Source of the DNA: a virus
Length of the DNA: 34,821 nt
Virus record (IMG/VR): IMGVR_UViG_3300030044_000055
Location: 1 to 34,821 of that record
Reading direction: 5' to 3' (one strand)
Shown: one piece after another, positions 4,504 to 32,757 of the stretch
Layout of the letters: every line of letters starts with the position of its first letter
How positions within the stretch are numbered: the first letter of the stretch is position 1
Program-made: the position numbers and the translations under genes
Notes under the pieces: generated by a model
Databases searched by the model: none
What the model was told of the DNA's origin: nothing
Seen by the model: only the letters and a program-made list of their open reading frames with translations

Positions 4504-4986
4504 TTAGCTTTTAGCTCCAGATCTCAAGTCTTCCCTGACTTTCATCAAAACTTCACCAAGCCAATTTTTGCCACGCCACTTTGATTTATCGAATCGGTCA
4601 GGATCTCTTTCAGACAGCCCGATACCCCAAATACGGTCTACAGGGCTGGCTTCAACAATTTCCTCATTATGGGTAGAAAGAATAAATTCCTTCAAATAAG
4701 GAGTTGCGAACTTAGCCATATTGGCCTTATAAACGAACCCTCTAGACACAGCATCCCAAGACTCTGCGTCAAAGTTCTTAACCATCCTACCGGTTGCTTT
4801 TTGGGTAGAAGGGTCATGAGCTTTCATGATCTTGGCTAAGGCGTCCGTATCATTGAAATAAGTGGCCTTCATAGCCATCATATACTGTTCTGCACAGTTA
4901 TACTTTACTCCATCGATCTCAAATACGCTCCTATACCATTGGCTAAAGGGTCCACCGTAGAAAAAATGAAACTTTTCATCACCCAT
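4504..4986 (-). CDS. NADAR-domain protein (YbiA/RibX superfamily)
   Basis: A 160-aa single-domain NADAR protein. The family hallmarks are present: FYGGPFSQWY (9-18), YNCAEQYMMAMKA (29-41), ASPVDRIWGIG (113-123) and GKNWLGEVLM (139-148). Characterised members cleave N-glycosidic bonds, including removal of ADP-ribose from guanine in DarT-type toxin systems, and riboflavin intermediates in YbiA. The ATG at 4986 is preceded by AAGGAG with 7 nt spacing and overlaps the Nampt-like stop codon by 8 bp. A longer in-frame start at 5049 lies deep inside that gene. Next to a NAD+-rebuilding pair it may release ADP-ribose from modified nucleic acid; this is inferred. Confidence 0.9.
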   Translation of the reverse strand: MGDEKFHFFYGGPFSQWYRSVFEIDGVKYNCAEQYMMAMKATYFNDTDALAKIMKAHDPSTQKATGRMVKNFDAESWDAVSRGFVYKANMAKFATPYLKEFILSTHNEEIVEASPVDRIWGIGLSERDPDRFDKSKWRGKNWLGEVLMKVREDLRSGAKS

Positions 4987-6451
4987 TTGCGTTCTCCTTA
5001 AGTTTTGCCCTGACTTGAGCGAAACTTTCTTCTCGGACCAGCTTACCATCTTTGAAGATGGGTTGCAAGAGATCCGTTGAAAGCTCCGAATTTAGGTCGT
5101 GGCCATCGCTAAAGGTAATCTTTCCGCCACTTTTGTAGACATGAACCTTACCTTTTTGAGATTTTTTGATTCCATCATCAGTCTTTGGGTCTTTGAAGAT
5201 CTGCTTTTCAACGCCATTTATGACACATAAAGTGCTCTTGAGAGCAAATCCGAAGGTATCACGAGTATTGTACTGATAGGTATACGACCCAATCCCAAAA
5301 ACCACGTTAATGGAAGCGAATCCTTTTTCAGCCAACTTAGTTACAATATCTTTAGCCCTAAAAAGGGTGATGGCGTCTCCATAGATCAGGCCAATGTGAG
5401 AATCGAGGACTTTATATCCTTTTCCGGTTTCAGTGCCTCCGAAGATATCCCAAAGGGCTTCGACTGCGCCCTTATACTCCAAACTACCCTTAGGTGCATC
5501 TGGATCACCACAAACGATCTTAACTGGGTCACCGGAATCAGGTCGAATGACAACACGGCCATCACGAGCCATGATTTTGTCTTTAAGGGCTGGAATAACC
5601 CTACCGATAACATCCCAGAAATCATACCCATCGGAAACAATGGACACGAAGCCCGAAGGATGTACTACGGACATCATTTGAGTCAGGTATTCCAAGTCAT
5701 TACCGTAGCTACATTGGATAGAGTGCTCGGTGGCTGGAATCGATGTCCCAACCAACTCTTTTTCAACATTGGCTCCATAGTAGTATTCTGCGGCCTGAAT
5801 GGCGGGAATCGTGTCCGTACCAACGAAGGAGAGGAGGTGCCCCATCCCACTCGACATTGCAGACTGAAGGGAAGACATACCGCGAAAGCTAAAATCATGC
5901 CCTTGGAAGGGAACGAAATCAGTATTTCCAACCGTTTTCAGAGAAGCTTCATCCAAGATCTTCCGATATTCTCCAGCAATAGTTGCTGAAGTCGAAGGCT
6001 GCCAAAGCTGGCAGGAAGCCAAGCTCTCAACAAAATTGGTAAGCCAAAAGAAGCGCTTATCGGTGTTTTGAATGGTCATCATTGGAACCCGCAAAGGTAC
6101 CAAAGTCCCTTCTGGGACAGATTTAATCAAAAGAGGAAGGTACCCAAGATCATGCAGCTCTTCGATATGCTTTGTCTCTGGATTAGCAACCCCTAGAGTA
6201 TTCTTGATAATTCTGGAATATTCTTTAACTACGTCGGCCTTAGCTTGGTGGAAAAAATTCAGATTGAAGAAATCGATCAAAAATTCCTTGATGAAAGCTT
6301 GCTGACCAAAGGCTACCACTTCGTCAACGCCTTTCATACGGCTAGCACGAGGGGTCCAAGTTGAAAACACCACTTCGGTACCAACCGGGTACATATTTTT
6401 ATGACTAACCTTATAGAAATCGGCCAACAACATTGCGTTCAGATTTTTCAT
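4979..6451 (-). CDS. Nampt-like NAD+ synthesis enzyme, candidate NARP1 Namat
   Basis: Nicotinamide phosphoribosyltransferase-like enzyme of 490 aa, close to the length of characterised Nampt. Active-site segments are conserved: HDFSFRGMSS (R190), SFVGTDT (D213), TEHS (H243) and VIRPDSGDP (R303, D305). The N-terminus ADFYKVSHKNMYP is also typical. Alone it would be called Nampt. Because it follows a PRPP-synthetase-like gene and no NMN adenylyltransferase is present, the better candidate is Namat of the phage NARP1 pathway, which joins nicotinamide to ADP-ribose pyrophosphate to give NAD+ directly. The start at 6451 has an AGGA-like site and clears the upstream gene by 10 bp; an earlier in-frame start at 6490 overlaps it. 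Confidence 0.9.
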   Translation of the reverse strand: MKNLNAMLLADFYKVSHKNMYPVGTEVVFSTWTPRASRMKGVDEVVAFGQQAFIKEFLIDFFNLNFFHQAKADVVKEYSRIIKNTLGVANPETKHIEELHDLGYLPLLIKSVPEGTLVPLRVPMMTIQNTDKRFFWLTNFVESLASCQLWQPSTSATIAGEYRKILDEASLKTVGNTDFVPFQGHDFSFRGMSSLQSAMSSGMGHLLSFVGTDTIPAIQAAEYYYGANVEKELVGTSIPATEHSIQCSYGNDLEYLTQMMSVVHPSGFVSIVSDGYDFWDVIGRVIPALKDKIMARDGRVVIRPDSGDPVKIVCGDPDAPKGSLEYKGAVEALWDIFGGTETGKGYKVLDSHIGLIYGDAITLFRAKDIVTKLAEKGFASINVVFGIGSYTYQYNTRDTFGFALKSTLCVINGVEKQIFKDPKTDDGIKKSQKGKVHVYKSGGKITFSDGHDLNSELSTDLLQPIFKDGKLVREESFAQVRAKLKENANG

Positions 6452-6461
6452 ATATAATATC

Positions 6462-7229
6462 CTATATTTGAATTGTGCCTTGACGTTCACTTACTTCACC
6501 AGCGTGAGTGAAAATCCGTTGGATACCCGATTCGAAGAGAGTTCTAGTTCCCTTCGAAAAGATCCCATGAGTCACGAAGAGCACCACGCTCTTTGCACCC
6601 GCAGCCAGTAGGTCTTTGGCCAAAAGTTTAAATGTCATACCGCCATCACAAATATCGTCCACTATGAGAACAGTTCCGATAGGCGTTCCAATCAGTTTAT
6701 AGCTTGTAATGTTGCCGGTGAGCTGATCTCGAACCTTCTCACCATAGATATGGCCACCCTTAAGCAGATTGATATATTTCTCGAAAGCGCCAGCATCTGG
6801 ATAACAGAAAAGGTTTGCTTCTACAAGCTTTGCGACCTCATAGATCTTATCTACAGGGTAAATAGCTTTAAAATTATAGATAAGCTCCTCGGCCACAGAA
6901 CTATGTGGGTCCATGCAGATAACTTCCTCGAACCCAAGATGGTTGAGAAGTTCAGCGAAGGCATAAAGAGCAAATGTAGCGGTATTGCTAGGCTCCTTAT
7001 CTTGGCGACCATAAGGAAGATAGGGAAGTCTGAGTACTGTCCTAAAATCGTAATGATCTAGGAGCAACTTAAGTTGAGCAAGTTGAAGGAATTCACCTTC
7101 ATTGCTAAACTCCCAAGTTACATGAGCAAAATTGGTTGTAGTGAGGATTTCTTCGGGGAGCTTCCAGACCTGAGAGGTATTGTCTGAAAACATAGTGGTG
7201 GGAACGGGAAGACCGTTTAAGTATAGCAT
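6462..7229 (-). CDS. PRPP-synthetase-like kinase, candidate NARP1 Adps
   Basis: A short (255 aa, versus about 315 for bacterial Prs) ribose-phosphate pyrophosphokinase homologue. Motifs: YLPYGRQDKE (70-79), MDPHS (106-110), PDAGAFEKY (144-152), flexible-loop region EKVRDQLTGN (164-173) and the PRPP-binding loop VLIVDDICDGGMTF (187-200). In phages with NARP1, this type of protein (Adps) pyrophosphorylates ADP-ribose instead of ribose 5-phosphate, supplying the substrate for Namat. The adjacency to the Nampt-like gene supports that reading, but a genuine PRPP synthetase feeding Nampt is the alternative. Ribosome-binding site AAGGAG lies 6-8 nt before the ATG. An extended -10 promoter lies 75 nt upstream. 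Confidence 0.9.
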   Translation of the reverse strand: MLYLNGLPVPTTMFSDNTSQVWKLPEEILTTTNFAHVTWEFSNEGEFLQLAQLKLLLDHYDFRTVLRLPYLPYGRQDKEPSNTATFALYAFAELLNHLGFEEVICMDPHSSVAEELIYNFKAIYPVDKIYEVAKLVEANLFCYPDAGAFEKYINLLKGGHIYGEKVRDQLTGNITSYKLIGTPIGTVLIVDDICDGGMTFKLLAKDLLAAGAKSVVLFVTHGIFSKGTRTLFESGIQRIFTHAGEVSERQGTIQI

Positions 7230-7727: not shown

Positions 7728-8420
7728 CTAAATATACTTAAAAATTAGTCCGTGCGTGTGAGGTCTTTCGCCGCTACAAACTCTAGCAATTGCCTGAAAA
7801 TTTATTCCCAATACTTTAGCGGCTTCCATAAGAAATGGATAAACTGTTCCAGTTGTAACGCAAAGTACTTTCTTACGTCTAGGAGAGGGTCTTCCCGTAC
7901 TATACTCTCTTAATGCCTGCCTTTGTTTTTCCGTAACGGATTTGCCGCCAAAATTAGGATTGTTCGACCCAGATCTAGACTCAGACATTTTATTTCGAGT
8001 TTTCTTCGAGCACTTTTTACCAAAATTAGCCTTGGCTATTTTATCTCTGGTTTCTTGAGAGGGTGCTTTCCCCGGCCTTCCCTTGTGTATCTTAGACAGC
8101 TTGTCTTTGGTTGATTGATGGGTCCTTCTATTTTTACCACCGCTGTCCAAATTATACCCATTGGGAGATAACGTGTTGAATATCTTGATGTAGTATTCTT
8201 CTCTGTGATTCATTTCTTCAATAGAGGCGCATCTAGCCAATACTTTGATTTCAAAGTTCTCCCTGCCATACTTTTGGATGGCTCTCACAATAGGCATATT
8301 TCTGTGTTTAGAGTTGGGAGTCAGATTGCAATGTTGGCACCATCGCTTCTCCAACCTTTGGACTGTTTGTCCGATATATCGATTTCCGCTTATTTTATTG
8401 GTTATCATGTAAATCAACAT
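7728..8420 (-). CDS. GIY-YIG homing endonuclease with NUMOD3 repeats
   Basis: Free-standing homing endonuclease of 230 aa. The N-terminal GIY-YIG nuclease domain (IYMITN, then GNRYIGQT, with the following QRLEKRW arginine and the glutamate in MNHREEYYI) spans about 1-95. Basic NUMOD3-type DNA-binding repeats follow (KDKLSKIHKGR, RDKIAKANFGK, NNPNFGGKS), and the C-terminus (VLCVTTGTVYPFLMEAAKVL) resembles a NUMOD1/HTH module. It makes site-specific double-strand breaks to spread its own gene. It separates the protease gene from the left-arm operon and has its own TTGACA-17-TATGAT promoter. No Shine-Dalgarno sequence precedes the ATG; the predicted message is almost leaderless. Confidence 0.9.
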   Translation of the reverse strand: MLIYMITNKISGNRYIGQTVQRLEKRWCQHCNLTPNSKHRNMPIVRAIQKYGRENFEIKVLARCASIEEMNHREEYYIKIFNTLSPNGYNLDSGGKNRRTHQSTKDKLSKIHKGRPGKAPSQETRDKIAKANFGKKCSKKTRNKMSESRSGSNNPNFGGKSVTEKQRQALREYSTGRPSPRRKKVLCVTTGTVYPFLMEAAKVLGINFQAIARVCSGERPHTHGLIFKYI

Positions 8421-9875: not shown

Positions 9876-10634
9876 CTAATAGATAAGATTGGAGAGGAGT
9901 TTGTCGCTTTTAATGATGTTCTCAATATGCCACATAGGCTGCAGGTTAGTATAGTGATTTGCCCTTAAGAATTGTTCTCTATCTGTCAGATCGATCCTGG
10001 AAAGTGGGAATATGTGATCTAGACTCCATTGCCCCTCCTTATTTCCGTAGTTATCCCAGGACATACCTGATTGCCATAGGGATTCGATATATTTACAAAA
10101 ATCTTCTATACTGCAGCCTAAATCTCTCACAGCGGAACCGGATTTAGGCTCTTTTATTCCCGTTTTTACGTACTGGGCCATCATATTAGTTATGCGAGTT
10201 CTCAGGCTGCATTTAAGTTTAAATGCGGGATCTACCCTCTTTCTTTCCTTCGCATAACGGACTTGCTCTTTACTATAGCATTTTTTACAAATTGCGGCAA
10301 ATCCAGGCTTAGGGCCTTCTACCAGGCGTAACTTTCTTTTCTTAAAACTTTTTAGGTCCTTGATTTCCTTACATTTCGTACAAATTCTTATTCCCAGTTC
10401 GGCATGTTTTCTTTTTTCTTCAATTTTCTTTTTGGTATCGCTTTTACGTTTTTCCTCACGAATTAAACGGGCTTCATCCGCGATAAGCATGAGTTTCCAT
10501 TTTTCGTCTCTTTTTTCTTGCTTAATTTTCTTTTCGCACTCCTTGCAATGTTCTCTACGGCCATCCATAGCCTTTTTGCGTTTAGAGAACTTGATTAAGT
10601 CTTTGTTTTCTTTACATTTAGTACAGGTCTTCAT
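9876..10634 (-). CDS. HNH homing endonuclease with N-terminal zinc finger
   Basis: A 252-aa HNH nuclease. It begins MKTCTKCKENKDLIKFSK, a CxxC...CxxC treble-clef zinc finger shared with two other HNH genes here, and a second CTKCKEIKD finger follows at about 85. A long basic, coiled region lies between. The C-terminal domain contains WSLDHIFPLS with the catalytic DH, then NHYTNLQPMW and ENIIKSDK, the HNH core. The ATG at 10634 is chosen over an upstream TTG at 10658 because it aligns with the start of the gene at 13748; there is no Shine-Dalgarno sequence. The 3' end comes 10 bp before the protease start and contains the protease promoter element. Confidence 0.88.
   Translation of the reverse strand: MKTCTKCKENKDLIKFSKRKKAMDGRREHCKECEKKIKQEKRDEKWKLMLIADEARLIREEKRKSDTKKKIEEKRKHAELGIRICTKCKEIKDLKSFKKRKLRLVEGPKPGFAAICKKCYSKEQVRYAKERKRVDPAFKLKCSLRTRITNMMAQYVKTGIKEPKSGSAVRDLGCSIEDFCKYIESLWQSGMSWDNYGNKEGQWSLDHIFPLSRIDLTDREQFLRANHYTNLQPMWHIENIIKSDKLLSNLIY
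9884..9892 (-). promoter_or_regulatory. CCAATCTTA element upstream of prohead protease
   Basis: On the minus strand CCAATCTTA ends 18 nt before the protease ATG, with an AGAGG ribosome-binding site between them. It overlaps the last codons of the HNH gene, so that gene's 3' end carries the promoter of the capsid gene it borders. Confidence 0.55.
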
Positions 10635-10639
10635 ATAGA

Positions 10640-10648
10640 TAAGATTGT
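10640..10648 (-). promoter_or_regulatory. ACAATCTTA element directly before HNH gene
   Basis: On the minus strand ACAATCTTA followed by TCTAT and then ATG. The 5-nt gap, and the absence of a Shine-Dalgarno sequence, predict a leaderless message. The block AATCTTATCTATATGAAG is identical in front of the HNH gene at 13748. Confidence 0.5.
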
Positions 10649-10742
10649 CTCGATTCAAATGTTCTATATCATGGGATTGTTTTTTGATTACTAAAACTGT
10701 TTCTAATAACTATATGTTTTCATACACTATTTTTTCGTAATA

Positions 10743-25614: not shown

Positions 25615-26115
25615 ATGAAGGTATGTTCTAAGTGTAAGGAAAATAAAGAGATTAGCTATTTTAGTAAGGATAAGGGGGCCAAAGACGGTTTTCAGCATAA
25701 ATGTAAGCTGTGTGCTAAGGCATACGATGAAATATCTAGAGCTAAGAACAAAGAAACTAGAAGCGCGTATAATGCTCAGTATTATGTAGAAAATAAGAAA
25801 AAAGAAAATACGAGGTCTTCTCTCTATAAAAAGGAAAATGCTGCGCTGGTGAACTCTGCTACAGCCAGAAGAAACGCAGCCAAAATCCAAGCTACCCCTT
25901 CCTGGCTTACCGAATCAGACTACAATAAAATAGACGAATTCTATATAGAAGCTGCTAGAAAGACTAAGGAAACTGGCATTCCCCATGAAGTTGATCATAT
26001 CTTGCCCTTATTGGGCAAAAATGTAAGAGGTTTACACGTACCCTGGAACTTGCAGATATTAACTAAATCTGCGAATAGCGCTAAGGGGAATAGAATAGAT
26101 GCCTCCTATCTTTAG
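25615..26115 (+). CDS. HNH homing endonuclease
   Basis: A 166-aa HNH nuclease and close paralogue of the gene at 13748: N-terminal zinc finger MKVCSKCKENKEISYFSK with KCKLC, basic linker, then IPHEVDHILPLLGKN, VRGLHVPWNLQILT and KSANSAKGNRID, with catalytic DH. It lies between the neck-region genes and the KSE-peptide genes. The start codon has only 18 bp of spacing from the previous stop and no ribosome-binding site. Confidence 0.9.
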   Translation: MKVCSKCKENKEISYFSKDKGAKDGFQHKCKLCAKAYDEISRAKNKETRSAYNAQYYVENKKKENTRSSLYKKENAALVNSATARRNAAKIQATPSWLTESDYNKIDEFYIEAARKTKETGIPHEVDHILPLLGKNVRGLHVPWNLQILTKSANSAKGNRIDASYL

Positions 26116-27115: not shown

Positions 27116-27415
27116 ATGGCAAAGCCGACGAAACTCAGACAACTTGAACAGCCCATGGTGGAGTCTAAGCCCAAGGAGATGACCTTGGCTGAATCTCGTG
27201 CCTATAGGGCTTCTCTTCATAGGCCTCAAGCCCCGTCGCTTACTGAAGAACAGAAACGTGAAGAGTTTCGCAAGTTTTGGGCCAGCAATAAAAAGAAATA
27301 TGGCGAAGCTAAGAATCTTGAAAAAGCTCTTTGGTTGCATCTCAAGACTATCAAAATGGATTCGCCAGAAGACTTTAAGAGGGGTTGCGACCATTTCGGA
27401 TTGAAGGTTAAATGA
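27116..27415 (+). CDS. Basic hypothetical protein (99 aa)
   Basis: A lysine/arginine-rich protein with a helical middle (EEQKREEFRKFWASNKKKYG) and a C-terminal helix (PEDFKRGCDHFGLKVK). It may be a small chaperone or DNA-associated phage protein, but no family is recognised. An AGGA site precedes the ATG, three bases after the previous stop. The stop overlaps the start of the GIY-YIG gene (ATGA). Confidence 0.6.
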   Translation: MAKPTKLRQLEQPMVESKPKEMTLAESRAYRASLHRPQAPSLTEEQKREEFRKFWASNKKKYGEAKNLEKALWLHLKTIKMDSPEDFKRGCDHFGLKVK

Positions 27416-28323
27416 AAGCTTCTCTAGGCTCCATCTACCTCATTACTAACCTCATCAACGGCAAATTGTACGTTGGTCAGACTGTTTATACGGTGGAGTT
27501 GAGGTTTTCTAAGCATGTTAGGACTGCGAATCTTGGAAGTGAATTAGCGCTCTGTAGGGCTATTCGTAAATATGGCGCAGAAAACTTTAAGATCGAGACC
27601 ATTGAAGTAACTTTTGAAACCGAACTAGACAATAGGGAAATCTTTTGGATTAAAGAGCTTAACAGTCTGTGTTTTGGCGGCGGCCTTGGATATAACATGA
27701 CTACGGGTGGTCACGGTGTAAGGGGGCGTATTCAATCTGAAGAAGAGAAGAAAAAACGAGTCCTATCATGCACCGGAAAAACCCACACCGCAGAAACTAA
27801 AGCCCTAATGAGCCAAAAAATGACTGGCCGAGAAATTACTTGGGCCGACAAGGTTTCTGAGGGTATGAAGAAGAGGCTCGCTGACAATCCAGACCATATG
27901 GCGAAGGTCGTCGAACAGGCTTTGGCGGCTGCCATCAAGAATAAAAAGCCTGTAGAGGCGTTGATGAACGGCGTATGGGTTGAATTTGCGGGAACTGAAG
28001 ATCTAGCTCAAGCCATTGGAGCAAAGGCTCCAAATATTACTAACGTTATTCGTGGTAAGGCCGACACTATCAAGGGATTTTCAATCCGCTCTAAGGATCC
28101 TGCAATTCAAGCTCTGTGTGAAAAGAATAGACTTGAGAGAAAATCTAAGCCTGGATCTCATAAGAGAGTTATCTGCTTAGAAACTAAAGAGATTTTTGAT
28201 TCGCGTAGGGCCGTCGCTGCAATCTTTAATGTAAGTATGAGAGCTGTAGACGATTCTGTAAACAAGAACTACGCGTGCCGTACAAAAGAACACGGCAAAT
28301 TACATTTTGCTGAAATGATTTAA
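27412..28323 (+). CDS. GIY-YIG homing endonuclease
   Basis: A 303-aa GIY-YIG nuclease: GSIYLITNLINGKLYVGQT at the N-terminus, with the arginine in ELRFSKH and the catalytic glutamate in DNREIFWIKEL. NUMOD3-like repeats follow (THTAETKALMSQKMTGRE), and two C-terminal HTH-type repeats (EFAGTEDLAQAIGAKAPNIT, DSRRAVAAIFNVSMRAVDDS) that resemble IENR1/NUMOD1 modules. It is inserted just before the tail sheath gene, in a coupled overlap (ATGA) with the upstream gene, so it relies on read-through and not on its own promoter. Confidence 0.9.
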   Translation: MKASLGSIYLITNLINGKLYVGQTVYTVELRFSKHVRTANLGSELALCRAIRKYGAENFKIETIEVTFETELDNREIFWIKELNSLCFGGGLGYNMTTGGHGVRGRIQSEEEKKKRVLSCTGKTHTAETKALMSQKMTGREITWADKVSEGMKKRLADNPDHMAKVVEQALAAAIKNKKPVEALMNGVWVEFAGTEDLAQAIGAKAPNITNVIRGKADTIKGFSIRSKDPAIQALCEKNRLERKSKPGSHKRVICLETKEIFDSRRAVAAIFNVSMRAVDDSVNKNYACRTKEHGKLHFAEMI

Positions 28324-28333
28324 GGGGAAATTT

Positions 28334-31267
28334 ATGTCACAACAACTTATTACACCTTTCGTTCGGACCAACGTCCCAGGTGCCTACGTAAATACCACTG
28401 TAATTTCAACGGCTTCCGGCCTTGCCACTTCTGGCGTCATCGTCCTGATGGGTGAAGCTGCTGCTGGTCCAGACTATAGCGTTACGAATTTGAAGACGAA
28501 CTTCTTCGGCCCTCAACAGGGTAATTTGGTTCGTAGTATTTATGGCTCAGGTCCTATCGTGGATGCCTTTAATGCCCTCGCTGCTCCTTCGAACGATCCT
28601 GACATTTCCGGTACGGCTTCTAGCGTTTACATCCTTAAAACCAATAAAGGTACTGAGGCTCACTCTCCTGTTGGGGCCTATACCTTTACTGTTACCGCTG
28701 CAAATGCTACGGTTGGCGCTACGTATAGTAATAATGACCAAACTTTTGTGGTCGAAAGCACGATTGCGGCTGGGACTACTCTGGTCGCTTCCGGAACCGG
28801 CGCTCCTACAGCTTCTGGGACTTTAACTAAAACTTCCGGAACTGGTGATTCGACGATTGCCTACTCGGCCTTCTCTGGCAGTACTTACGGCGTGTTCTTT
28901 TCACAGAATTATGGTGTTGGAGGAAACGGCTTTAGCTACACCATCACTTCCTTGGATACTGAAACTCCTCCTCAGGTTACTGGGACTACCGTTCCTGCTT
29001 TTGGAGCTGCTCTGAATGGCGATACCTTTACTATTCGTCAGAATGGTGGCGCTACGGATGTTATCACGTTGAGTTCTAGTGGTGGTGGTGCGTCTGCTAT
29101 GACCGGGCAATCCGATGCTCTAGCAGAATACAATACCTTGGAAGCCTTGACGCCGACCCCAATATCGAGCACTCTTGGTGGCCAAACCTTAGTTCCTGGA
29201 ACCTATTCAGAATCTAGTGGAACCTTTGCTATCGCCGCTTCGGGGACACTTACCCTGAATGGTGCTGGAACCTATGTGTTTCAGTGTTCTAGCACTCTCG
29301 TCACTGGCGCTGGAGCGACAATCGCTTTGACTGGCGGAGCTACTGCAGCTAATGTGTTTTTCCAAGTTGGTAGTTCGGCAACCCTCGGCGCAACCAATAC
29401 CTTCAACGGAAACATTATCGCCAATACGAGTGTTACCTTGGGTGGTGGCACAGTCAATGGTAGCGTGATCGCACTTAATGGTGCGGTTACGGTCAGCGTA
29501 GCAACTAACATTAATGCTCAGGCATCTGCACCGCTCGGTGTTGCTGGAGAATTTGGCCTTTTGGGCGCTACCGGCGTAACGAACACTGGCGCTACGGTTG
29601 TCCATGGAGACGTTGGGTCCTATCCTACGAATTCCATTACGGGTTTCCCACCTGGTATGGTCATCACCAATTCTCATGCTAATATTGCAGAATTGATTGT
29701 GGAACTGAATAGTCTACTTCCAGCCGGTATTACTGCTTCCGCTGGCGTTGCTTTGAATACCGTGGTTTTGACCATGGCGGCAAACCCTGCATCGTACGCT
29801 GCAGGTTATAGCCAAAGCTTCGAATTGATCGATTCTACTCCTGGTGATTTGGCTGCATTGGGCTTGCCTGCTGGAAACTTTGCTGCTGCACAAGAACCAG
29901 CTATCGAAGTTCAAACCACGAATACTGCTACGGGCTTTAATAGCACGATCGATATTACCCCTGCGGTGGCCTTGACTATCGGATACTTGGGTACGACTGG
30001 TACTGTTAGTGTTAATGCGACTACCCTGACTACTTCGGTTACGGGCGGAACTGGCGGTAATCTGTCGGCTACTCTTTCGCAGTATTCTACGGTTGGACAA
30101 CTTGCGGCATTCATTAATGCTCAGCCTGGTTACTCAGCAACTGCTACCCCTTCGGCTATCTCGCTTCCACCTTCTAGCTTGGATCAAGTGAGTGCTATTG
30201 GGATCGCAACCAGTACTCCTGGTGCTCAGCCAGGTCGTATTAAGGATTCAGCCTATGAATTCCAAACACAGATGGCTGCAAATACAGCTCTCTCGTTTAC
30301 TCCTATCATGTTCGCTGGTATTCCATTCCCTTCAAGTGGTGTGTTCCTATCTGGCGGAACTCTCGGCCCAACGTTGGCAATCGACATTGTAAATGCAATT
30401 TCTCAGCTTGCTGGGATTCAATGTAACATCATTGTTCCTTTGTTCTCTCAGGATGCCACTGCGGACATTCTTGCAGGGAATACCGATCCTGCATCCACGT
30501 ATACGATCGATGCCATCAATGAACTCCTCAAAACCCATTGTTTGCAGTTCTCTACTCCTGTTCTTAAAAAGAATCGTATGGCTGGACTCTCGTTCAATGG
30601 TACCTATGCTCAGGCCAAAGCTCAGGCACAGGGAATTGGAACGTATCGTTGCTACATGACCGATCAGCAAGTGACTCAGGTCAACAGCTTCGGCGTTAAC
30701 ACTTTGTTTCAGCCTTGGTATGCTGCAGTTATAGCTGCTGGTATGCAAGCTGGTGGATTCTATAAGTCTATTTGCAATCACTACGCAAACATTGTTTCTA
30801 TCACTGATCCTTCCGGATACGACAATGGAGATCCATTCGATGTGTCGGATGCGTTGACTGCGGGGCTTTTGGTTCTTTCGCAAGATGTGAATGGAATCAA
30901 GTGGGTCAGTGACCAAACAACTTATGGTTTAGATGCTAACTTCGTATATAACAGTATTCAAAGTGTATACTTATCGGATTTGCTCTCATTAGATCTTGCA
31001 CAGAGTTTTCAGCAATCAATGGTTGGAAAATCTCTTGCGGATCTTTCAGCAGCAAGCGCTTTGAGTTTTTTGCAACAGAGATTTGACTACTACCGCAAGC
31101 TCAAAATGACCACGGCAAGCAACGACGCGCCGCTCGGGTATCGCAATGCATCCATCCAAATCGCAGCACCTTCTATGTTCGTTGCTGTTGAGGCGAAACT
31201 TACCACAAGCTTATATTTTGTGGCCATTGATCTCGCCTTATCGGCAGTTCAACAGTCGGCATCATAA
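28334..31267 (+). CDS. Tail sheath protein with inserted permuted ice-binding-like domain
   Basis: Contractile tail sheath subunit, 977 aa, much longer than the approximately 500-660 aa usual for sheaths. N-terminal sheath signature (TPFVRTNVPGAYVNTTVIST, then SGVIVLMGEAAAG) and a C-terminal domain (VFLSGGTLGPTLAIDIVNAI ... KLKMTTASNDAPLGYRNASI ... AIDLALSAVQQ) flank a long T/G/A-rich insertion (about 100-635). Within it residues 257-395 match the C-terminal half of DUF3494 (ice-binding-like) domains (LGGQTLVPGTY, GAGTYVFQ, NVFFQVGSSATLG, FNGNIIANTSVTLG, GSVIALNGAVT), and residues 399-445 match the N-terminal half (APLGVAGEFGLLG, NTGATVVHGDVG, ITGFPPGMV), so their order is reversed. Ribosome-binding site AAGGGG. 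Confidence 0.88.
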   Translation: MSQQLITPFVRTNVPGAYVNTTVISTASGLATSGVIVLMGEAAAGPDYSVTNLKTNFFGPQQGNLVRSIYGSGPIVDAFNALAAPSNDPDISGTASSVYILKTNKGTEAHSPVGAYTFTVTAANATVGATYSNNDQTFVVESTIAAGTTLVASGTGAPTASGTLTKTSGTGDSTIAYSAFSGSTYGVFFSQNYGVGGNGFSYTITSLDTETPPQVTGTTVPAFGAALNGDTFTIRQNGGATDVITLSSSGGGASAMTGQSDALAEYNTLEALTPTPISSTLGGQTLVPGTYSESSGTFAIAASGTLTLNGAGTYVFQCSSTLVTGAGATIALTGGATAANVFFQVGSSATLGATNTFNGNIIANTSVTLGGGTVNGSVIALNGAVTVSVATNINAQASAPLGVAGEFGLLGATGVTNTGATVVHGDVGSYPTNSITGFPPGMVITNSHANIAELIVELNSLLPAGITASAGVALNTVVLTMAANPASYAAGYSQSFELIDSTPGDLAALGLPAGNFAAAQEPAIEVQTTNTATGFNSTIDITPAVALTIGYLGTTGTVSVNATTLTTSVTGGTGGNLSATLSQYSTVGQLAAFINAQPGYSATATPSAISLPPSSLDQVSAIGIATSTPGAQPGRIKDSAYEFQTQMAANTALSFTPIMFAGIPFPSSGVFLSGGTLGPTLAIDIVNAISQLAGIQCNIIVPLFSQDATADILAGNTDPASTYTIDAINELLKTHCLQFSTPVLKKNRMAGLSFNGTYAQAKAQAQGIGTYRCYMTDQQVTQVNSFGVNTLFQPWYAAVIAAGMQAGGFYKSICNHYANIVSITDPSGYDNGDPFDVSDALTAGLLVLSQDVNGIKWVSDQTTYGLDANFVYNSIQSVYLSDLLSLDLAQSFQQSMVGKSLADLSAASALSFLQQRFDYYRKLKMTTASNDAPLGYRNASIQIAAPSMFVAVEAKLTTSLYFVAIDLALSAVQQSAS
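29102..29668 (+). other. Region encoding the permuted DUF3494-like domain within the sheath
   Basis: Codons 257-445 of the tail sheath. The DUF3494 second half (through NGAVTV at 382) comes before the first half (from APLGVAGEF at 399). The flanking sheath segments FTIRQNGGATDVITLSS and ELIVELNSLLPAGITAS look like two halves of one small domain interrupted by this insertion. Confidence 0.7.
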
Positions 31268-31290: not shown

Positions 31291-31815
31291 ATGGCAGCAG
31301 GTAGTCCGGGTAATGTTGGGCCTAACACTCCAACTCAAATTGCAGCATCGTCTAAAGTTATCACTGGTGGTCGTTCAGTGGTGTCTATCAACTCTGGGAA
31401 CGGGCCTGTAGTTATTGGCATCTTCGATTCTTGTACTATTAGCGAAAGTATCTCTTCGGAAGATATTCATATTCTCGGAGCCTACGCGGCTCAAGAAATT
31501 ACGCTTGTGAGCTACAACAGTGTTTCAGTTTCTTGTAGTGGATTTCGCGTATATGGTCACGGCGTAAAACTACTCGGAGCTTTTCCGACGCTGAACAATT
31601 TGTTGTCGCTCGGACCGGTAGTCATTACTGTAGGAGATAGGGAGTCACCGACTGGCCCTCCTATGGCAACCATAGTAAACTGTTTGCCGGATACCAACAG
31701 CAACAGCTTTACGAGTCGTGCAACGAGTAAGATAAATTTGACCTATAAGGGCACTTCCGTGAGTGATGAGAGTTCTGTAGGGGACGGAGAGAGCGGAGCA
31801 ACCACTCTCCCTTGA
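31291..31815 (+). CDS. Tail tube protein
   Basis: A 174-aa protein immediately downstream of the sheath gene, the usual position of the tail tube. It is mostly beta-strand (VVSINSGNGPVVIGIFDSCT, AQEITLVSYNSVSVSCSGFR, GPVVITVGDRES), and its size fits tube proteins (about 140-190 aa). It assembles as hexamer rings inside the sheath. The AGGAG site precedes the ATG and a strong terminator follows, indicating a high-level transcript. No family match is claimed, so position carries much of the assignment. Confidence 0.75.
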   Translation: MAAGSPGNVGPNTPTQIAASSKVITGGRSVVSINSGNGPVVIGIFDSCTISESISSEDIHILGAYAAQEITLVSYNSVSVSCSGFRVYGHGVKLLGAFPTLNNLLSLGPVVITVGDRESPTGPPMATIVNCLPDTNSNSFTSRATSKINLTYKGTSVSDESSVGDGESGATTLP

Positions 31816-31929: not shown

Positions 31930-32757
31930 ATGATCGTTTATAGAATTATTAATAAAATTAACGGTAAGGAATATATAGGTCAGACCATAAAAACCTTAAA
32001 AAGAAGGTGGACCGAACATTGCTGCGCCGGGTCTATCCTTTATAAGGCTATAAAGAAATACGGAAAAGAAAATTTCACTCAAAGTATTATCCATACATGT
32101 GATAACATAGAAGATTTGAATTTGGCCGAAGAATACTTTATAGAATATTATAATACGATGAGTCCAAATGGATACAACCTCCATACGGGTGGAAACAATC
32201 ATATGGTTTCGGATGAAACTCGTAAAAAAATGTCTGAGGCGGGTAAAGGAAAAACTTGGACAGAAGAACGGAAGAAAAAACACTCCGAATCTATAAGCGG
32301 AGAAAAGCACCCAAATTTTGGAAAAACCGCTACGAATGAAACGAGAGATAAGATATCCAAGGCTGGGACGGGTAGAAAGCACGCAGAGACATCTAAAATA
32401 AAAATAGGTGAATCAAAGAAAGGAGTTCCGCGCTCAGAAGAGGTAAGGCGTAACATATCTGTTTCTAGCACAGGAAAGACGGTTTCAGAAGAAGTAAAAC
32501 AAAAAATCTCTAAAGCTACAAAGGGTGAAAACAATCCCAATTTTGGGAATAGGATGTCAAAGCAGAGTCGCGAAAAAATATCGGAAGCGAATAGAGGAGA
32601 ACCCTTTATTTGTTTAAACAATGGTAAAACCTACTATACCCTGCAAAGCGCTGGAGACGAATTGGATATAAACATAACTGGAATAAGTAGGACCTTACGG
32701 GGAAAACAACGCGGTACAAATGGGTACAGGTTTAAGTATCTGCGAGAAGCCCCCTAA
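31930..32757 (+). CDS. GIY-YIG homing endonuclease with many NUMOD3 repeats
   Basis: A 275-aa nuclease. GIY-YIG domain at 1-90 (IVYRIINKINGKEYIGQT, then TLKRRWTEH with the arginine, and LNLAEEYFIEYYNT with the glutamate). Then at least five NUMOD3-type repeats (ETRKKMSEAGKGKTW, HPNFGKTATNETRDKISKAG, EEVRRNISVSSTGK, NPNFGNRMSKQSREKISEA). The C-terminal segment (FICLNNGKTYYTLQSAGDEL) resembles a NUMOD1/HTH module. It sits between tail tube and tail-fibre genes with its own terminator and promoter. Confidence 0.92.
   Translation: MIVYRIINKINGKEYIGQTIKTLKRRWTEHCCAGSILYKAIKKYGKENFTQSIIHTCDNIEDLNLAEEYFIEYYNTMSPNGYNLHTGGNNHMVSDETRKKMSEAGKGKTWTEERKKKHSESISGEKHPNFGKTATNETRDKISKAGTGRKHAETSKIKIGESKKGVPRSEEVRRNISVSSTGKTVSEEVKQKISKATKGENNPNFGNRMSKQSREKISEANRGEPFICLNNGKTYYTLQSAGDELDINITGISRTLRGKQRGTNGYRFKYLREAP

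Follow-up and report, generated by a model that had tools for sequence, protein, structure and literature searches.

The tail sheath protein encoded in the viral DNA analyzed here (34,821 nucleotides, positions 1 to 34,821 of IMG/VR record IMGVR_UViG_3300030044_000055; in the following, this whole stretch is termed the window) almost certainly contains a DUF3494 domain that is circularly permuted and nested within the sheath. Overall, the explanation that accounts best for the data, and to which we give somewhat better than even chances, is that the permuted DUF3494 domain is a plug-in cassette that is exchanged between phage proteins and may form an adhesive array on the tail.

The sheath gene and its nested DUF3494 domain

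The first-pass annotation of the window had read the open reading frame at 28334-31267 (977 aa; this gene, its features and the gene behind it are all on the plus strand) as a tail sheath, and this identity was borne out in three ways. In tblastn searches, the frame matches the protein annotated as tail sheath in Myxococcus phage Mx1, a related phage with a contractile tail (PMC6070905); relatives of the protein without insert span the PHROG tail sheath family phrog_279 end to end (L055, E 6.9e-24; L152, E 1.7e-39); and the best PDB match of the predicted structure is the sheath of phage 812 (Foldseek E 1.5e-21). The sheath core is built from the N- and C-terminal parts of the protein, with Foldseek matches to the sheaths of phage 812, phiCD508 and DSY3957. 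As judged from sequence and model, the frame is a phi812-type contractile tail sheath. The next gene (31291-31815) probably encodes the tail tube protein, as its position suggests; it shares 29% identity with the gene after the Mx1 sheath gene, and a comparison with tube families gave no family match. On either side of these two genes there is a GIY-YIG homing endonuclease gene (27412-28323 and 31930-32757), and three further homing or endonuclease VII-type genes are found at 7728-8420, 9876-10658 and 25615-26115, i.e. five such genes in 35 kb. The window also contains a nicotinamide phosphoribosyltransferase gene (4979-6490, E 6.7e-195), which suggests NAD salvage by the phage.

PF11999 (DUF3494) is the sole Pfam family detected in the sheath frame. 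The match consists of two stretches, with an E-value of 1.7e-31 for the protein as a whole, and the score of 109.9 bits, at a cut-off of 28.7, is that of a full-profile match, with profile positions 50-203 and 2-50 being covered. The best stretch, residues 243-388, corresponds to profile positions 50-203; on the DNA level, 29057-29497 corresponds to positions 49-203 and the downstream region 29561-29890 to positions 2-106. The same arrangement emerged from phmmer alignments with the solved structure 7bwx (AnpIBP), in which residues 272-399 align with 7bwx 83-210 (i-E 1.2e-15) and residues 399-450 with 7bwx 9-59 (i-E 4.8e-7). Aligned in swapped order, the two halves thus complement each other, as the first-pass annotation had proposed for the sheath, with one break at about 7bwx 59/60, directly before the long helix. 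The canonical order, N-terminal half and then C-terminal half, is absent from the window sheath, and since the swapped order was found there as well as in 30 of 30 DUF3494-bearing sheath frames, the domain is a circular permutant of PF11999 and not an ordinary member of the family. An assembly artefact can be ruled out, as the same arrangement occurs in the independent contigs L001-L006 and in 30 distinct sheath frames.

The cassette that carries the complete permuted domain comprises residues ~249-447 (29078-29674) and is absent in relatives of ~715 aa and present in relatives of 915-926 aa. It contains in this order the second half of DUF3494 with the long helix and coils b2-b6 (29090-29518, residues ~253-395; supported by PF11999 50-203, 7bwx 83-210 and the secondary structure of the model), a short linker that joins the former C- and N-termini (29519-29527, residues ~396-398; junction at about ‘VNAQxSPLLGxAG’ in an alignment of 22 permuted inserts), and the first half with coil b1 and the cap up to GFPPG (29528-29656, residues 399-441; 7bwx 9-59, profile 2-106). 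The second half had initially been placed from residue 257 onward, which is right within a few residues, but the insert begins slightly earlier, at ~249-253, because the break adjoins the start of the long helix.

For the structural analysis, an AlphaFold model of the window sheath was generated from an 84-row alignment from which the Mx1 row had been left out (mean pLDDT 85.4). The pLDDT values are mostly 86-97 over residues 255-430 and lower, 74-61, over residues 430-450. The model predicts a helix-braced beta-solenoid, with a helix at residues 255-270 and about 18 short strands up to residue 429, and Foldseek aligned it with the ice-binding protein 6eio over 137 columns at 1.7 A and 39% identity, whereby only the larger DUF3494 half is superposed well. 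The structures 5uyt and 7bwx are also among the matches, below the phage 812 sheath, so that a single model shows both the sheath and the ice-binding-like part. A model of a sheath of clade B (L129, pLDDT 79.9; see below) gave a similar result, a DUF3494 solenoid within a sheath. The beta-solenoid that had been anticipated from the letters alone is hence reproduced by the AlphaFold model and its matches to 6eio and 7bwx, and alignments and model agree with the earlier view that the flanking sheath domain is interrupted by an insertion in a loop.

Insertion sites, order of the halves and exchange of the cassette

A scan with the sheath C-terminus yielded 481 viral relatives, 80 of which were kept, and a second scan contributed 54 from a diverged clade. 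Most of the complete sheaths belong to one of the length classes of about 600, 711-747, 781-785, 894-954 and 977-989 aa, and according to the alignments the additions are nested, from the core via an outer domain that contains a beta-beta-alpha unit to the permuted DUF3494 domain and a module of ~63 aa. Relatives without insert (~715 aa) fix the exact insertion point. In clade A, to which the window sheath belongs, the cassette (window residues 249-447) separates the second strand of the beta-beta-alpha unit from its helix: it is preceded by the strands ‘DTFTIR..VITLS’ (29024-29068, residues 231-245; model strands 231-236 and 241-245) and followed by the helix ‘HANIAELIVELN’ (29675-29716, residues 448-461; model helix 451-461), which are kept in insert-free sheaths, the helix for example in L073. 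In case of clade B, the cassette precedes the first strand, and in the model of L129 the strands 371-376 and 385-388 and the helix 396-404 all come after the insert. As the strands are located before the insert in the window and after it in L129, two insertion sites can be distinguished. A DUF3494 insert is lacking in most members of the sheath family, and the cassette is therefore dispensable. The short clade B sheaths of ~600 aa (L152-L158, L164, L170) lack the entire outer domain that hosts the cassette. A second, smaller module is present in another loop of the window sheath (‘YTFTVTAANATVGATYSNNDQTF...’, residues ~113-181, 28670-28876) and absent from L005 and most relatives. Such beta-rich modules of ~63 aa (YTFTVTxANATxGATYxNNxQTF...) occur at differing sheath loops in the window, L067 and L099, similar text is found twice in a baseplate-type protein of L032, and the shuffled module has no match in Pfam.

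The order of the halves was determined by searching every open frame of the collected loci with half-domain profiles, and the resulting counts refer to events that are not independent of each other. The DUF3494-bearing sheath frames of the family are without exception permuted (30 permuted, 0 canonical), and the permutation that the first-pass annotation had described for one sheath is therewith found in all distinct frames of this kind. In other viral proteins, there are 32 single and 6 double canonical cases, 2 permuted cases, and one protein with a canonical and a permuted copy. Cellular loci gave 24 canonical cases, one tandem canonical case, 9 cases in which only the larger half scored, and no permuted case. 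None of the 31 DUF3494-positive genomes among 297 sampled Bacteroidota genomes contains a permuted copy; the overlaps that G158 and G347 seem to show resemble canonical copies in tandem. In L014 (residues 607-1016), two tandem canonical DUF3494 domains are about 12 residues apart, and their two inner halves together correspond in composition to a permuted cassette.

Nested permuted domains could be identified in four separate contexts: besides the sheath sites A and B, these are loops of two other proteins, a tail-type protein of 2288 aa (L018) and a protein of ~510 aa (L250, L253). The L018 protein also has a canonical copy, and its residues 1061-1290 represent a second kind of permutant that is cut after the helix and not before it. 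The homologue of the ~510-aa protein in a 166-kb phage record that is near-identical to the window (G002, L043) has an empty loop and a canonical copy after the domain. The window phage carries furthermore two canonical DUF3494 copies on a protein that resembles the baseplate wedge, as well as a further copy at another place. Among the records of at least 80 kb, another DUF3494 domain accompanies the sheath cassette in 4 of 4 cases versus 3 of 18 otherwise, but this association is weakened by the fact that some of the records had been found via those other copies; restricted to records that were also found through the sheath, the ratio is 3/3 versus 3/18. A sheath-like protein of another family, phrog_16991, has a canonical DUF3494 domain at residues 218-403 that is apparently nested (L031, 5434-8841). 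A strict rule that nested domains must be permuted is ruled out by this protein. The first-pass annotation had reasoned that a permutation would permit insertion in a loop with both ends side by side; adjacent ends do allow nesting, but the ends of canonical domains are adjacent as well, and the L031 domain is canonical. Permutation is thus favored, not required, for nesting, which is a tendency and no law.

The inserts have evidently not simply followed their sheaths. The identities of inserts versus scaffolds are 0.67 versus 0.70 within clade A, 0.63 versus 0.70 within clade B, and 0.61 versus 0.35 between the clades, and the correlations of insert and scaffold identities are 0.16 (clade A), 0.24 (clade B) and -0.22 (between clades). 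Moreover, the DNA of the window and of L003 is identical from ~28934 to 30580, a region that contains the complete cassette (99.3% identity in one 150-base bin, 100% in all others), whereas the gene ends outside of this tract have 64-79% identity. By its sequence, the shared tract is a recent recombination tract. A homing endonuclease as driver of this event is unsupported, as L003 has the tract and no upstream endonuclease gene. Since the similarity of the inserts does not follow that of the sheaths, and because of the identical tract, the domain behaves as an exchanged cassette, which related phages have also gained and lost. For the cassettes of L250 and L253, the best identities to sheath cassettes (0.81 and 0.78) exceed the best one to rotated canonical copies (0.72), an indication that it was the permuted unit as such that moved between genes. 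Taken together, sequence comparisons make it very likely that sheaths and other tail-type proteins exchange the permuted DUF3494 domain as a cassette. In a tree of the DUF3494 domains, sheath A, sheath B and canonical copies are mixed with modest support (the row xL014_perm0 is an artefact of tandem pairing); a single clean origin of the permuted inserts was considered, and this mixing settles neither one nor several origins.

Fold topology and possible role on the tail

Published DUF3494 structures have the spatial coil order b1-b6-b5-b4-b3-b2, with the long helix between b1 and b2 (PMC7277481, PMC7966756). As b1 adjoins b6 in space, a cut before the helix and a joining of the old ends give a continuous solenoid b2-b3-b4-b5-b6-b1. 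Both new ends would leave at the helix/cap end, and the domain would stand end-on on its host loop and leave the sheath core undisturbed. A simple route to the permutation could be a tandem duplication of a canonical domain with a short linker, followed by the loss of the outer halves.

Additional sheath domains are situated at a distance from the tube, and a function in adhesion or stability was proposed for them (PMC9230969); the cassette loop probably faces outward. With one cassette per sheath subunit, a dense array would arise on the outside of the extended tail, and together with the canonical DUF3494 copies of the baseplate wedge this array could act as a weak, high-avidity adhesive patch. 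Candidate surfaces would be repetitive ones, such as ice, polysaccharide or the host envelope, and the patch would hold the particle near cells or on particles until the specific receptor is engaged. The positions that are equivalent to the ice-binding face of AnpIBP are occupied nearly exclusively by S, T, A and G in 22 inserts, with T350 in 22 and T386 in 21 of them, and the window insert has neither Lys nor Arg. Such small-residue faces are common on solenoids and no proof of ice or glycan binding. We therefore regard the adhesive role of the sheath cassette as putative, with the chances about evenly balanced.

Which other explanations could be considered? It is unlikely that the cassette literally binds ice and protects or anchors the virion during freeze-thaw, although its nearest solved relatives are ice-binding proteins, its B-face positions resemble AnpIBP with an identical SSATLG strand, and one sheath relative was found in a bog Deltaproteobacteria MAG (a search in the phylum of this MAG covered 58 genomes only and has little weight). 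DUF3494 domains are also part of substrate-binding and adhesive proteins, the ice-binding proteins of the family share no common conserved ice-binding motif (PMC12337378, PMC7966756), and ice binding gives little reason for having DUF3494 on baseplate and sheath at once. The single copy per sheath subunit would also be compatible with a structural function, in which the cassette contacts neighboring subunits and thereby stiffens or cements the extended sheath, as it has been proposed for the additional domains of phage 812; stabilization has indeed been raised as one role of additional sheath domains (PMC9230969). But close relatives of the sheath manage without the cassette, its sequence does not co-vary with that of its sheath as an interface would, and the same cassette occurs in unrelated proteins, which renders this function rather improbable.

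The variable presence and the exchange of the cassette, as well as the insertion of the second, unrelated small module at several sheath sites, could finally reflect a neutral or selfish insertion, i.e. a well-folded, freely recombining domain that is tolerated due to its adjacent ends and has no role of its own. We consider this very unlikely, as surface S/T positions are kept across inserts that are 51-72% identical to that of the window, and as phages with a sheath cassette carry DUF3494 on other tail-type proteins, too.

The favored explanation, an exchanged plug-in cassette with an adhesive role, can be extended to a more general proposal, for which we see even odds: the permuted DUF3494 domain may be a distinct mobile plug-in of phage virion proteins that has the order for loop insertion, with the canonical order being used between domains, that moves among sheaths and tail-type proteins, and that covers tails with an array which binds to surfaces. 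To go by the literature searched, no natural circular permutant of this fold would have been described before. DUF3494 is a fold in which the order of coils in space differs from the order in sequence, and both orders are natural and occur in the same phages. The choice between them tends to track the mode of attachment, and the influence of topology on the insertion of domains can thus readily be tested with this fold. That tail sheaths can carry ice-binding-like solenoids bears on the question how phages stay near hosts, particles or ice. As its ends are adjacent and several sites are known for it, the cassette could also be used as a module for display.

Comparison with known systems

Additional sheath domains are already known, as is the presence of DUF3494 in viruses. 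A literature search, with most subscription journals and preprints being outside its coverage, gave no permuted DUF3494 domain and no DUF3494 domain in a sheath. The window domain resembles the PF11999 domains of 6eio, 7bwx (AnpIBP) and TisAFP in the sequence of both halves, the helix-braced beta-solenoid and the S/T/A/G-rich B-face, but unlike these, its halves are swapped, it is nested in another domain, and it is part of a virion protein. With the sheaths of phage 812 and phrog_279, the window sheath shares the scaffold, the core of N- and C-terminal parts and the position of additional domains in the middle of the protein. The difference to phage 812-type sheaths is that its additional domain includes a permuted DUF3494 domain, whereas the reported ones are mostly Ig-like (PMC9230969, in which ice-binding, solenoids and permutation are not mentioned). 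The Mx1 sheath (WNM70095.1) is of the same family, with 41% identity over the aligned 52%, and has a large insert at a similar place, but in contrast to the window insert this has no DUF3494 match.

As in case of the PF11999 ‘auxiliary metabolic genes’ that were described for Arctic viruses (PMC11515562), a DUF3494 domain is encoded by a virus, but there it is reported as a possible gene for host cryoprotection and not as a virion domain, and no permutation is reported. A functional parallel may be the Ig-like domains of phage structural proteins, which are likewise optional, exchanged and surface-displayed, and which are thought to stick weakly to surfaces (cited in PMC9230969). The DUF3494 cassette differs from them in its fold, and in that an order-swapped variant is dominant at the nested sites.
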